A DNA stretch of 64,000 nt, taken from positions 1 to 64,000 of the forward strand of contig JABDBW010000003.1 of NCBI GenBank assembly GCA_013288485.1. The letters are read 5' to 3'. Source of the stretch: Bacteroidota bacterium (GTDB lineage: Bacteria > Bacteroidota > Bacteroidia > Sphingobacteriales > Sphingobacteriaceae). Shown here in pieces: positions 8,279 to 45,928 of this stretch. The translations under genes were made by a program, and so were the position numbers. The notes beneath the pieces are model-generated. The model made no database searches. It had not been told where the DNA came from and saw nothing but the letters and a program-made list of their open reading frames with translations. Every line of letters begins with the position of its first letter. Within the stretch, counting starts at the first letter, position 1.

Positions 8279-8761
8279 ATGAAAATGAAAAAATTAGTTT
8301 TAGCAATGGTTACCATAGGTATGGTTACAGCATTTGGCTGCCAGAATAGTAATGGGCAGGATAATTCAAAAAGATTAAGCAAACCCGCCGCCGAATGGAA
8401 AAAGCAGCTTACCCCGAACCAATATTATATAATGGTTGAAAGCGGGACCGAGCCGCCTTTTCACAATGCCTACTATAACAACCACGAAAAAGGGGTTTAT
8501 GTGAGTGCCGCCACCGGCGAGGTATTATTCAGTTCGGACGATAAGTACGATAGCGGCACAGGGTGGCCAAGCTTTGTTAAACCGGTTGACCCAAAAAAGA
8601 TAAAAGTAGTTACCGACAATAGCGATGGCATGACCCGCGATGAAGTTATAGAACGAAGCACGGGCCTTCACCTGGGCCATGTTTTTGACGACGGCCCTGC
8701 CGACAGGGGCGGAAAAAGATATTGCATGAATTCGGGCGCGCTTAAATTCATTAAAAAATAG
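8279..8761 (+). CDS. msrB: Lipoprotein peptide-methionine (R)-S-oxide reductase, zinc-less
   Basis: 160 residues. The N-terminus has a lipobox (AFGC, Cys21), so it is probably a membrane-anchored periplasmic protein. The MsrB core is complete: SGTEPPF, KYDSGTGWPSF, GLHLGHVFDDGP and the catalytic Cys in RYCMNS. It reduces methionine-R-sulfoxide in proteins. Oddity: both zinc CxxC motifs of classical MsrB are gone (YVSAATG and VIERSTG replace them), and the GCGWPSF resolving cysteine of the Neisseria type is Thr. Only two cysteines exist in the whole protein, so regeneration probably needs an external thiol reductant. Convergent 11-bp overlap with the next gene. Confidence 0.93.
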   Translation: MKMKKLVLAMVTIGMVTAFGCQNSNGQDNSKRLSKPAAEWKKQLTPNQYYIMVESGTEPPFHNAYYNNHEKGVYVSAATGEVLFSSDDKYDSGTGWPSFVKPVDPKKIKVVTDNSDGMTRDEVIERSTGLHLGHVFDDGPADRGGKRYCMNSGALKFIKK

Positions 8762-25500: not shown

Positions 25501-25518
25501 ATGTAACATTAATTGGCA

Positions 25519-25755
25519 ATGAAAACATTAAACATTTCTATATCAGATATTGAGTATAAAAAATTTGGTTTACAGAACGATCGGCTTACTTTTACAGATT
25601 TCGTTGACCTGATTAGTAATGAGTTATCGCGTCAAAACCTTAACAGGTGCATTGAACTTGCAGAAAAATATGGATTGTCGAAATTGACAATGGACGATAT
25701 TAGCAAAGAAGTAAAAGCTGTAAGAAAAAATGCAAAAAATAATACTCGATACTAA
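25519..25755 (+). CDS. Antitoxin of a PIN-type toxin-antitoxin pair
   Basis: 78 residues from the ATG at 25519; the track's TTG adds two. Begins MKTLNISISDIEYKKFGLQND, a short beta strand then helices resembling small ribbon-helix-helix antitoxins, with a basic C-terminus (KAVRKNAKNNTRY). It overlaps the downstream PIN gene by 26 bp, a typical TA arrangement that couples translation. The exact antitoxin family is not recognised; identity rests mainly on position and size. Confidence 0.8.
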   Translation: MKTLNISISDIEYKKFGLQNDRLTFTDFVDLISNELSRQNLNRCIELAEKYGLSKLTMDDISKEVKAVRKNAKNNTRY

Positions 25756-26149
25756 TGTCTTAGTCTCAGGCTTAATTCAAAAAAACTATCCTTACCTAAT
25801 TATCTACGAGGTTTTTAATAGTAATCAAATTGAGCTTTGTATTTCAGATATACTAATGTTTGAATATTATGAAGTATTAAATCGTAAAAAGTTTTCAAAA
25901 TATCCCGATTTTCTTATCAAAGCTGAAGCATTACTTGTTGATATTGAAAAAAAGGCGATACTATTCAAACCCACTACAATTCTTAATATAATTGATGATT
26001 CAGCAGATAACCGGCTTTTAGAACTTGCAGAAGAATGCGAGGCTAATTTTCTGATAACAGGCAATACAAACGATTTTAAAATTACAAATTACAAAAAAAC
26101 TCAAATAATATCACCCAAAGAATATTACGAAAATCACTGTCCATATTAA
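25730..26149 (+). CDS. PIN-domain toxin (putative RNase)
   Basis: 139 residues. Acidic PIN-site residues are visible: Asp in IILDTNVLVSGL, Glu in SDILMFEYYEVLNRKKF, and a C-terminal IDDSADNRLLELAEECEANF then LITGN. It matches the putative toxin component, PIN family, about 135-140 residues, which cleaves RNA when free of antitoxin. Starts inside the antitoxin gene. All catalytic positions appear present, so it is likely functional, unlike the PIN remnant at 1094. Confidence 0.88.
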   Translation: MQKIILDTNVLVSGLIQKNYPYLIIYEVFNSNQIELCISDILMFEYYEVLNRKKFSKYPDFLIKAEALLVDIEKKAILFKPTTILNIIDDSADNRLLELAEECEANFLITGNTNDFKITNYKKTQIISPKEYYENHCPY

Positions 26150-26228: not shown

Positions 26229-26849
26229 ATGCTAATCAAGATATATCCCGAAAATCCAAATCCAAAATCTATTGAACAGATAGTTGATGTATTACGCAAA
26301 GGGGGGCTAATCATCTATCCTACTGATACGGTTTATGGTTTGGGATGTGACATTACGAATCACAAGGCTATTGAAGCTATTTGCAGGATAAGGAACATAC
26401 TGCCCGATAAGGCCAACTTCTCGTTTATATGCTATGATCTGAGCCATATATCAGATTATATTAAGCCTATAGACAATACCACGTTCAGGGTGTTAAAAAA
26501 GGCCTTACCCGGGCCATTTACCTTTATTTTTAATGCCAACCACAATGTACCCAAACTATTAAGCTCCAATAAAAAAACAGTAGGCATAAGGGTTCCTGAT
26601 AATGATATAGCGCGCTGTATAGTGAAAGAGCTGGGGAATCCTATTCTTTCAACCTCTATTAAAGATGATGACGAGATCATTGAGTACTCTACCGATCCTG
26701 AACTGATCCATGAAAAATACCAGGACCTGGTTGATATGGTGATAGATGGCGGCTATGGTGATAATATTGCGTCCACTGTGGTTGACTGCACATCGGGCAA
26801 CTTTGATATTATACGAGAAGGTAAAGGGGAATTAGAGTTGTATTTATAA
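26229..26849 (+). CDS. Sua5/YciO/YrdC family protein (threonylcarbamoyl-AMP synthase type)
   Basis: 206 residues. Forms threonylcarbamoyl-adenylate for the tRNA t6A modification, or is a YciO-type paralogue. Seen: [55 protein letters not shown]. The usual KxR of YrdC reads [18 protein letters not shown], nearer to the YciO subgroup, so I leave the symbol open. Overlaps the end of trpA tail to tail by 6 bp. Confidence 0.88.
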
Positions 26850-27620
26850 TGACGGCTTAATTGAACTAATAAACGCCGGTATCTTATTTAAATAATTTTC
26901 CTGTTCCAAAAGTTTCACAAATTTACTGCCTACTATTGCGCCGTTGGCATATTCGCAGGCTTTTTTAAATGTAGCGTTATCAGCTATGCCAAACCCGATA
27001 ATGGTCGGGTTCTTCAATTGCATGGCTTTAATACGCTTGTAATAATCCTCAATACTGTCTGATACATCTAAATTTCCCCCGGTTATAGATGAAGATGAAA
27101 GCAGGTAGATAAAACTATTGCTTAACTCATCAATTTTGCGGATGCGATCAGCCGATGTTTGCGGGGTTACTAAAAAAATATTGCTCAGGTTATTATCCTT
27201 AAAAAAACCGGCGTACAGGGTTTCATACTCGTACATAGGCAAATCGGGTACAATAACGCCGTCTATACCTGCTTCGGCTGCTTTTTTGCAGAATCGCTCC
27301 ACACCAAATTGTACTATAGGGTTAACATAACCCATTAACAATATAGGGATGGTTACCCGTTTACGCAGGTCTTTTAATTGCTCAAACAGTAAATTAAGGG
27401 TCATCCCGTTATCCAGCGCTTGTTGCGAGCTATGCTGAATGGTTGGCCCGTCGGCTACAGGATCAGAATAAGGAAAGCCTATCTCCAAAAAATCGGCTCC
27501 GGCTTTTTCCAGCGCTAGGGCAATATCAACTGTAGTATCCAGTTCCGGATAACCGGCTGTGTAGTAAATGGATAATAGATTGTTATTCTTAGTAGCAAAA
27601 AGCTTATTCAGACGGTTCAT
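26844..27620 (-). CDS. trpA: Tryptophan synthase alpha subunit
   Basis: 258 residues. Splits indole-3-glycerol phosphate to indole and G3P and passes indole to TrpB. Family motifs: [21 protein letters not shown] with the catalytic Glu and Asp region, [11 protein letters not shown], and [12 protein letters not shown]. Last gene of trpD-F-B-A; the 75-bp gap to trpB contains a hairpin-forming repeat that also occurs at 31846. Confidence 0.95.
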
Positions 27621-27695: not shown

Positions 27696-28877
27696 TTAAA
27701 AGCCAAAGTATTTTATATATGTATCCAGGTCTTTATCGCCCCTACCCGAAAGACAGATAATCACGTTATCATCTTTCTTAAATTTCATTTTCTCTAACTG
27801 CGCCAGCGCGTGCGCCGATTCAATAGCCGGGATGATGCCTTCCAACTGGCAGCATAATAAGCCTGCCTGCAGGGCTTCATCATCGGTAACACTCGCATAT
27901 TGAGCTCGGTTTATTTTGTACAGGTGCGCGTGCTGCGGGCCTATACCGGGATAATCTAATCCCGCTGATATAGAATAGGGCTCAACCACCTGCCCGTCGT
28001 CGGTTTGCATGAGTATGGTACGGCTACCATGCAAAACCCCTTCCCTGCCCAAAAAGGTAGTCGCTGCCGAATGACCGCTGTTTACACCTTTTCCGGCCGC
28101 CTCAACCGCGATGAGTTTAACGCTTTCATCATCTAAAAAATGATAAAACATACCCATAGCGTTGCTGCCGCCCCCAACGCAGGCCATCACATATTCGGGC
28201 AACTCTTTACCGGTATGTTCCAATAATTGCTTTTTAGCTTCGAGGGATATAATAGACTGGAACCGCGCCACCATATCAGGGTAAGGATATGGCCCAACAA
28301 CTGATCCGATTATATAATGCGTATCAACCGGGTTGGCTATCCAGTCGCGCAGGGCCTCATTGGTGGCGTCCTTCAATGTTTTACTGCCCGACCTTGCCGG
28401 AACTACCTTTGCGCCCAGCATCTTCATACGCGACACGTTAGGGGCCTGCCTCGCCATATCAACCTCGCCCATATAAACCACGCATTCAATACCTTTTAAC
28501 GCGCAAACGGTCGCCGTTGCAACGCCATGCTGACCCGCGCCTGTTTCGGCTATGATACGTTTTTTACCCAGGCGTTGGGCAAGCAATATCTGGCCGATAG
28601 CATTATTAATTTTATGCGATCCGGTATGGTTAAGGTCCTCTCGTTTTAAAAATATGTTGGCCCCGTATTTTTCTGAATACCTTTTAGCATAATACAGCGG
28701 AGAGGGCCTGCCCACATAATCTTTTAAAAGCAGGTCAAATTCAGCCTTAAAATCAGCATCATTTATAATACTTAAATATTTTTGCCGCAATTCTTCCACA
28801 TTGGGGTACAGCATTTCCGGCACATACGCGCCTCCAAAATCGCCGTAATATCCTTGATCGTTAACTCCGTATTTCAT
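27696..28877 (-). CDS. trpB: Tryptophan synthase beta subunit
   Basis: 393 residues. PLP enzyme joining indole and serine. The Schiff-base lysine lies in [15 protein letters not shown] (about residue 88), with [12 protein letters not shown] and the glycine-rich phosphate loop [10 protein letters not shown]. Its ATG lies within the last 17 bp of trpF, so the two are translationally coupled. Confidence 0.97.
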
Positions 28878-29502
28878 GCGCGGTATATTGTTTTAACAGG
28901 TTAAATGCCTGTTTTAATTTTTCTATATCTTTCATACCCGGCGCTGTTTCAAAACGGCTGTTTAGGTCAACGCCATAAAATTGGGGATGTGTAATTTTTT
29001 TTATTTCTTCTAAATTATCCAAACTTACCCCACCACTTAAAAAAAACGGCAAGTTTAACTTATATTTATCTAAAATGTTCCAGTTAAATGTTTGGCCCGA
29101 GCCGCCGTGTATAGCTGTCTTTGTATCAAACAGTATGTAATCAACTTTATCGGCATAAGCGTTCAGTTGGTTGAAATCAAAATCATTATCCAAGCCAAAC
29201 GCTTTTATAACAGTAACCTTATTTCTGAATGAGTCGGCAAATTCAGGACTTTCCTTACCATGCAATTGTATGGCATTAAAGCCATAATTATCAATAAGCG
29301 TGTTAATATTTTCCTTTATTTCATCAACCAAAACAGCGGTTTTGTAAACAGGTGCCGGGATATCATTTAATACTTCGGCAGACATATCGCCAATAAACCT
29401 GGGCGAATGTTCATAACTGATAAAGCCCATGTAATCGGGGCCCAAACCTGCCACTGCTTTAATATTTTCAGGATCTATTAATCCGCAAACCTTTATTTTC
29501 AT
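28861..29502 (-). CDS. trpF: Phosphoribosylanthranilate isomerase
   Basis: 213 residues. Isomerises N-(5'-phosphoribosyl)anthranilate. Motifs: [21 protein letters not shown] with the catalytic Cys, [41 protein letters not shown]. Begins 1 bp after trpD ends, the place where trpC is expected in many Bacteroidota operons, but no trpC is present. Confidence 0.95.
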
Positions 29503-29503
29503 T

Positions 29504-30493
29504 TTAGTTATCCAACAGGTTTTTAAAACTTGCTAATGCCTTTTTACTTAACAAGGAGTTTTCTGCTTCATAAAAACAATCGCCAAAGCTGTTTTGCGGA
29601 TTTATTGTTTTAATGGCCAATGCCGCGTTCGCTAAAACCACATTGCTTTGCGCGGTAGTGCAATCTCCCATTAACACCTGCATAAAAATAGCTGCCGATT
29701 CGCTAACGGTGTTTCCGCCTGTAATTGCCGAGGGATCGATCCTTTCAAATCCAATGCTTTTTAAGGTATTTATCTTTTCTCCATCAACCGAAAAAGTTTT
29801 AAAATCGCAGGTTAACGAAATTTCATCATAACCGTCAAGCGCGTTCAATATGGTATATTTTCTGTCAGACCGCTGATAAAGATAAGCATACATCCGCGCC
29901 AGTTCTAAATTATACACCCCCACCAGTTGATTTTTTGGCATAGCCGGGTTAACCATTGGGCCGAGCATATTAAAAAATGTTTTAACACCCAGTTCTTTTC
30001 GTATAGGCGCCACCGTTTTCATTGCCGGGTGAAATAAAGGAGCGTGCAAAAAACAAATATTAGCAGTATCAATGCTGCGCCTGAGTGCATCGGCATTATT
30101 GGTGAATTGGTAGCCCAGGTATTCCATCACATTCGAGGAGCCGCAGCCGGAAGAAACCCCATAATTGCCATGTTTGGCTACTTTATAGCCTGCACCCGCA
30201 ACCACGAACGAAGCAAGGGTAGATATATTAAACGTGTCCTTTCCATCACCACCGGTTCCGCAAAGATCGATAAGGTCGCCCGACTCCAGGTCAATAGCAA
30301 GGCAAAGCTCCAGCATGGCATCCCTGAAACCCTCTAATTCGTTAACGGTAATATTGCGCATACAATAAGCCGTCATAAACGCGGCCATTTGTGAGTTATT
30401 ATATAACCCCTGCGATATCAATGTTAAAATATCACGCGCCTGTTCGCGGGTAAGTGTTTTATTTTCAAAAAGATGGTTTAAAATAGGTTTCAT
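29504..30493 (-). CDS. trpD: Anthranilate phosphoribosyltransferase
   Basis: 329 residues. Transfers phosphoribose to anthranilate. Motifs: LIDLCGTGGDGKDTFNIST (PRPP binding), VAKHGNYGVSSGCGSSNVME, FLHAPLFHPAMKTVAPIRKELG, and FFNMLGPMVNPA. First structural gene of the operon; its ATG is about 39 nt downstream of an attenuator terminator preceded by a Trp-rich leader peptide. trpE and trpG are not upstream. Confidence 0.96.
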   Translation of the reverse strand: MKPILNHLFENKTLTREQARDILTLISQGLYNNSQMAAFMTAYCMRNITVNELEGFRDAMLELCLAIDLESGDLIDLCGTGGDGKDTFNISTLASFVVAGAGYKVAKHGNYGVSSGCGSSNVMEYLGYQFTNNADALRRSIDTANICFLHAPLFHPAMKTVAPIRKELGVKTFFNMLGPMVNPAMPKNQLVGVYNLELARMYAYLYQRSDRKYTILNALDGYDEISLTCDFKTFSVDGEKINTLKSIGFERIDPSAITGGNTVSESAAIFMQVLMGDCTTAQSNVVLANAALAIKTINPQNSFGDCFYEAENSLLSKKALASFKNLLDN

Positions 30494-30531: not shown

Positions 30532-30560
30532 AAAAAAAGGCTACCCAACGGCAACCCTTT
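30532..30560 (-). terminator. Attenuator terminator of the trp operon
   Basis: On the minus strand GGTTGCC-GTTG-GGTAGCC (two G-U pairs) is flanked by AAA and followed by seven T's. Its 5' arm can instead pair with GGCAAACC at 30582-30589, giving the alternative antiterminator. Confidence 0.85.
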
Positions 30561-30581
30561 AACTATAATTTAAATAACATA

Positions 30582-30589
30582 GGTTTGCC
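30582..30589 (-). promoter_or_regulatory. Antiterminator arm (region 2) of the trp attenuator
   Basis: GGCAAACC directly after the leader stop codon pairs with GGTTGCC (5' arm of the terminator) leaving one bulged A. A ribosome stalled on the Trp codons leaves it free; a ribosome at the stop codon would cover it. Confidence 0.75.
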
Positions 30590-30643
30590 TTACGATTTCC
30601 CGTTAAGCCACCACCAATTATTGTTTAAACTTTTAATTATCAT
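30590..30643 (-). CDS. trpL: trp leader peptide with three consecutive Trp codons
   Basis: A 17-residue reading frame too short for the ORF track: MIIKSLNNNWWWLNGKS, with TGG TGG TGG at 30608-30616 and the TAA at 30590-30592 abutting the antiterminator arm. A CATATTTG box at 30651-30658 with TTG 20 bp further upstream predicts a start site within a few bases of the leader ATG, so the transcript would be nearly leaderless. The Trp run, the stop position, and the two mutually exclusive hairpins together fit ribosome-mediated attenuation: low charged tRNA-Trp stalls the ribosome and lets trpDFBA be read. Inferred from sequence only. Confidence 0.88.
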   Translation of the reverse strand: MIIKSLNNNWWWLNGKS

Positions 30644-30650
30644 TTATGCA

Positions 30651-30681
30651 CAAATATGGAAATAGTTTTTTCTAAAAGCAA
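30651..30681 (-). promoter_or_regulatory. trp operon promoter
   Basis: Minus strand: TTG (30679-30681), 20 bp, then CATATTTG (30651-30658), close to the Bacteroidota TTG / TAnnTTTG pattern. Confidence 0.6.
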
Positions 30682-30792
30682 GTATAATGATAAATTTACG
30701 GTGATGTTGGATTAGTTATTGGGTTATTAAGTTATTAGTTACTTGGCCCAGTACGACTTATAAACTTAATAATTAACTTGATCAACTATATA

Positions 30793-30896
30793 CTCAATAA
30801 CTCAATAACTCAATAACTCAATAACTCAATAACTCAATAACTCAATAACTCAATAACTCAATAACTCAATAACTCAATAATTCAATAACTCAATAA
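30793..30896. repeat. Tandem repeat, 13 copies of CTCAATAA
   Basis: Thirteen head-to-tail 8-bp units fill 30793-30896, all identical except unit 12 (TTCAATAA). The array ends 6 bp before the Kir channel ATG. Upstream, 30715-30760 carries the degenerate inverse word (TTATTGGGTTATTAAG). The number of units may change by slippage; because the array is outside the frame it would alter spacing or expression rather than the reading frame. Confidence 0.95.
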
Positions 30897-30902
30897 CCCC
30901 CC

Positions 30903-45620: not shown

Positions 45621-45693
<73 letters not shown>

Positions 45694-45843: not shown

Positions 45844-45928
45844 GCTCGGGTGGTGGAACTGGTAGACACGCAGGACTTAAAATCCTGTGCCCGTCAAAGG
45901 CGTGCGGGTTCGATTCCCGCCCCGAGTA
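45844..45928 (+). tRNA. tRNA-Leu (TAA)
   Basis: 85 nt: acceptor GCTCGGG / CCCGAGT (one G-U), D-loop GGTAGACACG, anticodon stem CAGGA / TCCTG with loop CTTAAAA (anticodon TAA), long variable arm TGCCCGTCAAAGGCGT, T-arm GCGGG-TTCGATT-CCCGC, discriminator A. The class II shape fits leucine. Confidence 0.93.

Follow-up and report, generated by a model that had tools for sequence, protein, structure and literature searches.

The window examined here, meaning the whole 64-kb stretch of DNA, carries a trpD-trpF-trpB-trpA cluster on its minus strand, and direct reading of the sequence upstream of trpD located all the elements of a Trp attenuator on that strand (Table 1). The closest relatives of the window TrpD are from Mucilaginibacter, which places the DNA in the Sphingobacteriaceae, in a Mucilaginibacter-like bacterium; the source assembly is 62% complete. 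Elsewhere in the window, two tRNA genes lie on the plus strand (45621-45693 and 45844-45928), and two overlapping small ORFs (25513-26149) resemble, by eye, an antitoxin/PIN-domain toxin pair. Between the leader promoter and a divergent potassium-channel-like gene there are 13 copies of the 8-mer ACTCAATA (30792-30897), and short repeats similar to this array, TTAGTGAATTATTGATT, are found near the leader of another Mucilaginibacter (L004).

Table 1. Features of the trpDFBA leader and the genes downstream of it (positions in the window).
Feature	Position	Strand	Basis
-33 promoter element, TTG	30679..30681	-	Sequence reading; 20 nt 5′ of the -7 box
-7 promoter element, CATATTTG (Bacteroidota sigma-A; consensus TAnnTTTG)	30651..30658	-	Sequence reading; consensus from PMC9723704
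Predicted transcription start (~30646) and 3-nt 5′ UTR	30644..30646	-	Position of the -7 box
Leader peptide ORF trpL, MIIKSLNNNWWWLNGKS + TAA, 17 codons	30590..30643	-	Sequence reading; conserved in Sphingobacteriaceae
1:2 (protector/pause) hairpin, 30608-30600 with 30595-30587	30587..30608	-	Both-side changes in 6/9 pairs, 43 leaders
Segment 2, GGCAAACC, antiterminator 5′ strand	30582..30589	-	Pairs with 30557-30550
Segment 3, AAAGGGTTGCC, terminator 5′ arm/antiterminator 3′ strand	30550..30560	-	Sequence and pairing counts
Segment 4, GGTAGCCTTTT + T tail, intrinsic terminator	30532..30545	-	Both-side changes in 6/10 3:4 pairs, 43 leaders
trpD, anthranilate phosphoribosyltransferase, first gene downstream	29504..30493	-	TIGR01245, 303 bits (cut-off 199)
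trpF, phosphoribosylanthranilate isomerase	28861..29502	-	Best NCBIfam matches are PRAI models, below equivalog cut-offs
trpB, tryptophan synthase beta	27696..28877	-	TIGR00263, 590 bits (cut-off 392)
trpA, tryptophan synthase alpha	26844..27620	-	TIGR00262, 230 bits (cut-off 102)

The first-pass annotation had described, with no strand given, a complete Trp attenuator in which a 17-codon leader with three TGG codons ends exactly at GGCAAACC, and had proposed that this sequence pairs with the 5′ arm of a T-tailed terminator. Read on the minus strand, every one of these parts is present. The trpL ORF runs from an ATG at 30643 to a TAA stop codon at 30592-30590, with its three TGG (UGG) codons in tandem at 30616-30608. 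Directly 3′ of the stop codon lies GGCAAACC, which is complementary, with one mismatch or bulge, to GGGTTGCC in the terminator 5′ arm; the spacer between GGCAAACC and the terminator hairpin is A/T-rich. The hairpin itself, AAAGGGTTGCC-GTTG-GGTAGCCTTTT, occupies 30560-30535 and its T tail reaches 30532. A plus-strand reading of the same interval was discarded, its structure being unsupported (z -0.67).

Among the short ATG ORFs of the 64-kb window, trpL is the only one to contain WWW, and no such ORF occurred in 10 first-order Markov sequences. The fold of the whole leader has a z-score of -2.52, with 1 of 200 shuffles as good, and the duplex between segments 2 and 3, at -10.8 kcal/mol, was equalled by none of 200 spacer shuffles. 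A search of the window for leaders of other amino acids returned one unconvincing ORF only, at 8681. The whole-leader fold also contains a long-range GTTTAAAC/GTTTAAAC pairing, which we read as chance because it is absent in the five relatives checked.

The region upstream of trpD was then compared in relatives, as the first-pass annotation had suggested. trpD is present in 105 of 121 Sphingobacteriaceae genomes and the upstream DNA was read for 90 of these (loci L002-L091). In 86/90, trpD is preceded by a short ORF in which two or three Trp codons are clustered, and a hairpin with a T tail follows this ORF; 68 of these 86 leaders have three Trp codons. The leader is therefore not a product of chance. 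Of the four regions that lack it, L082 is cut by a contig end; in the remaining three, all from one genus (L057, L059 and L070), a recognisable Trp leader was not found. L057 and L059 retain the TTTG box and a hairpin with a T run, the Trp ORF being absent, and from their sequence these leaders look decayed. A scan of 80 named loci reported 66 leaders, one of which (L220) is spurious. The remaining 65 are mostly from Mucilaginibacter, Pedobacter and Sphingobacterium, and most named members of these three genera have a Trp-rich leader before trpD; in the more distant Cytophagales and Flavobacteriia among the 80 loci a leader before trpD was not found. Within the NNNWWWLN core of 32 leaders of the genus, all variable sites are third codon positions, although these sequences were chosen by their peptide and the observation is partly circular. 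In leaders from several genera (L016, L020-L024, L032 and others) segment 2 (GGCAATC) lies inside the leader ORF, where it encodes LAI, and its distance from the Trp codons is unchanged.

Pairing was counted in an alignment of 43 leaders, with slid partners as the control. Across the 1:2 hairpin and the terminator, 85.7% of cells hold standard pairs, compared with 27–50% when slid, and 12 pairs of the two helices have changed on both sides. In the 3:4 terminator alone, 93.7% of cells are standard. Compensatory pairs can be read directly, for example ACGA/UCGU, ACGC/GCGU and AUAAAG/CUUUAU. For the 2:3 antiterminator, 82% of cells are paired against 32–55% when slid; segments 2 and 3 vary little, and there is thus little covariation between them. 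Taken singly, only 42/86 leaders have a 2:3 pairing that beats 95% of composition shuffles. The spacing is held, in that the best 2:3 duplex starts 14–20 nt past the last Trp codon in 84/86, on whichever side of segment 2 the stop codon falls. A classical Trp attenuator has a short tandem-Trp leader ORF upstream of trp genes, and an intrinsic terminator together with 1:2, 2:3 and 3:4 pairings that exclude one another; all of these are found here.

We then folded the RNA left free just after synthesis of segment 3, the ribosome masking at most 12 nt counted from the first base of its A-site codon. A ribosome stalled at the first Trp codon of the window leader gives a fold of -10.2 kcal/mol, and one stalled at the last gives -8.2 kcal/mol, with 7 segment-3 bases paired with segment 2. 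Moving the ribosome to the stop codon reduces this to -0.1 kcal/mol and 2 segment-3 bases, and in ribosome-free RNA the 1:2 fold ties up segment 2. Thus, in the model, segment 2 of the window is free when the ribosome is at the Trp codons and covered when it is at the stop; the separation is weaker in some relatives. The antiterminator forms upon stalling in all 86 leaders. At the stop codon, fewer than 4 segment-3 bases are paired in 34/86 leaders and at least 4 in 52/86, usually at much weaker energy, and on account of this residual pairing the mask model should be taken as qualitative, not kinetic.

The promoter is conserved together with the leader. A TTTG-type -7 box lies 2–17 nt before the leader ATG in 85/86 relatives, the distance peaking at 10 nt; in the window, 7 nt separate the end of CATATTTG from the ATG. 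TTG occurs in the -33 region of 71/85 relatives, against ~15 expected from flanking windows. As is to be expected in Bacteroidota, the leader gave no match in a sigma-70 promoter scan. In Flavobacterium psychrophilum the -7 box occupies positions -12 to -5 (PMC9723704), and we therefore took the 5′ UTR as the distance from box to ATG minus 4, which gives ~3 nt for the window. Calculated in this way, the 5′ UTR is shorter than 10 nt in 78/85 relatives and 53/63 named loci. Such starts are scarce in the Bacteroidota studied, where leaderless mRNAs or those with a 5′ UTR below 10 nt make up less than 6% (5.5% leaderless in F. psychrophilum, PMC9723704; ~3.7% with a 5′ UTR below 10 nt in B. thetaiotaomicron, PMC7366714). 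The suggestion of the first-pass annotation that the mRNA is nearly leaderless thus agrees with the conservation of the promoter.

Taken together, these data indicate that a ribosome-mediated transcription attenuator responsive to Trp very probably controls trpDFBA. RNA polymerase would start ~3 nt 5′ of the leader AUG, and a ribosome would load on this near-leaderless end. When charged tRNA-Trp is ample, the ribosome would reach the UAA and cover segment 2, GGCAAACC, leaving GGGTTGCC of segment 3 to pair with segment 4, and transcription would terminate upstream of trpD. Under a shortage of charged tRNA-Trp, the ribosome would stall at any of the three UGG codons, with segment 2 exposed at least 18 nt downstream; segments 2 and 3 could then pair ahead of the synthesis of segment 4, allowing read-through into trpD. 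Were the leader not translated, the 1:2 hairpin would tie up segment 2 and termination would be favoured. The fit to classical attenuation proposed by the first-pass annotation is borne out by the parts and their spacing, by conservation in 86 relatives and by the compensatory changes in the hairpins.

Besides attenuation, the attenuated RNA or the peptide might act in trans, as rnTrpL and peTrpL do in Sinorhizobium meliloti, whose trp leader is leaderless (PMC7298713). The predicted product here is a short terminated RNA, but the leader peptide is variable outside the WWW core and the hairpins, and we give this additional role only a slight chance. A second reading is that a constitutive intrinsic terminator merely follows a short ORF with incidental Trp codons, in which case there would be no Trp-dependent switch. 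The terminator alone is indeed strong; however, Trp leaders are conserved before trpD in Sphingobacteriaceae and before trpE in other families, the 1:2 helix is compensatory, the Trp codons stand at a fixed spacing from segment 2 and the Markov sequences hold no WWW short ORFs, all of which makes this reading very improbable. Sensing of Trp through the leader by something other than the translating ribosome, such as the T-box, TRAP-like protein or Trp riboswitch that control trp genes in Firmicutes, is scarcely credible given that the window holds no T-box or similar Rfam match and that conservation centres on the tandem-Trp ATG ORF and the pairing around its end.

The same genome holds a second candidate attenuator. 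trpE-trpG-trpC lie on another contig (genes named by sequence, trpE via TIGR00564 at a score below its cut-off), and a Trp leader, MIKNNKRNYWWHQLNLAAGPCF (WW), precedes trpE at G000:C20:12225-12157 (L125, L228), followed by a CCCGGC/GCCGGG terminator. A WW leader is present at 12/12 trpE loci of the genus; the terminator was detected automatically at 10/12, and at the remaining two it can be seen by reading the sequence. The segment-2 sequences differ, being GGCAA for trpDFBA and GCCGGG for trpEGC. Both halves of the pathway would therefore be under attenuators with different antiterminator sequences. Bacteroidota hardly use Shine-Dalgarno sequences. We propose, tentatively and with somewhat less than even confidence, that selection keeps the Sphingobacteriaceae Trp attenuator near-leaderless, with about 10 nt at most between the RNA 5′ end and the AUG, so that the ribosome loads without a Shine-Dalgarno sequence and is coupled to the polymerase from the first codons, and that the two attenuators tune the pathway halves in parallel. 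If true, the ribosome would load as soon as the RNA 5′ end leaves the polymerase. A near-leaderless leader, if confirmed, would be a simple natural system for ribosome loading and polymerase coupling.

By its anatomy, the window element is a conserved classical-type Trp attenuator, of a kind already known in the phylum. A comparative study of attenuation by Lopatovskaya et al. in 2010, cited in PMC4833913, may cover Bacteroidetes. The first-pass annotation had suspected earlier predictions in this phylum, and these do exist: Rfam RF01692, Bacteroid-trp, was described by Weinberg et al. in 2010 (PMC2864571), an attenuation role was suggested for it in F. psychrophilum (PMC6414381), and RNA-seq in that species gave clues of leader-peptide attenuation upstream of amino-acid operons (PMC9723704). 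Like the window leader, RF01692 has a Trp-rich leader peptide before Bacteroidetes trp genes. It differs in that its model ends at segment 3, has a longer 1:2 stem and is without the terminator 3′ arm. The window scores 36.1 bits, below the gathering score of 49 and thus formally outside the family, yet RF01692 is its best Rfam match and aligns end to end (positions 1-131), with the AUG, the UGG run and segment 3 in register. Since a same-genus relative (L003) reaches 48.0 bits and so bridges the gap, we regard the window element as of RF01692 type. RF01692 singles out the same trpD leaders of the family at scores below threshold; its cut-off is passed in 1/61 Sphingobacteriaceae genomes and in 27/296 of a draw from the phylum, nearly all from one other family. 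Therefore, RF01692 misses most Trp leaders of Sphingobacteriaceae, and the family-specific form is under-recognised.

A covariance model was built from the trpD leaders, with no trpE leaders of other families among them. In other families of the class it matches WWW leaders immediately upstream of trpE, and many of these pass the RF01692 cut-off. Most matches below ~41 bits are terminators without a Trp leader and were set aside as false positives, as was a second match in one genome (G036, C4:119644) of the same nature; the match at L115 was rejected for want of a Trp leader ORF.

The F. psychrophilum leader is from the same phylum and has a proposed role in Trp attenuation; it belongs to another family and precedes a trp operon, whereas the window leader precedes trpD and a separate attenuator precedes trpEGC. 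By the rule used above, a trpE leader from another family (L102) has a predicted 5′ UTR of ~12 nt, compared with ~3 nt in the window. The trp leader of E. coli and other proteobacteria follows a four-segment logic, with tandem UGG codons and 1:2, 2:3 and 3:4 pairings. The window leader shares this logic; it has WWW instead of WW, is located at trpD and, if the predicted start is right, has too few nucleotides before its AUG to fit a Shine-Dalgarno sequence. The corresponding model, RF00513 (Trp_leader; gathering score 41 bits), gave no match in the window at E-values up to 10. Leaderless trpL of S. meliloti and Streptomyces lividans has a Trp ORF at or adjoining the RNA 5′ end (PMC7298713, PMC8079986), as is predicted for the window leader, and trpL1 of S. 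lividans has WWW as in the window (PMC8079986). These are from other phyla and have other promoters, and in S. meliloti transcription begins with the AUG (PMC7298713), compared with ~3 nt predicted before it in the window. To these systems the present analysis adds the leader anatomy, the predicted ~3-nt 5′ UTR, the location at trpD and the paired attenuators, and of these the near-leaderless start and the pairing of attenuators are the parts worth pursuing.
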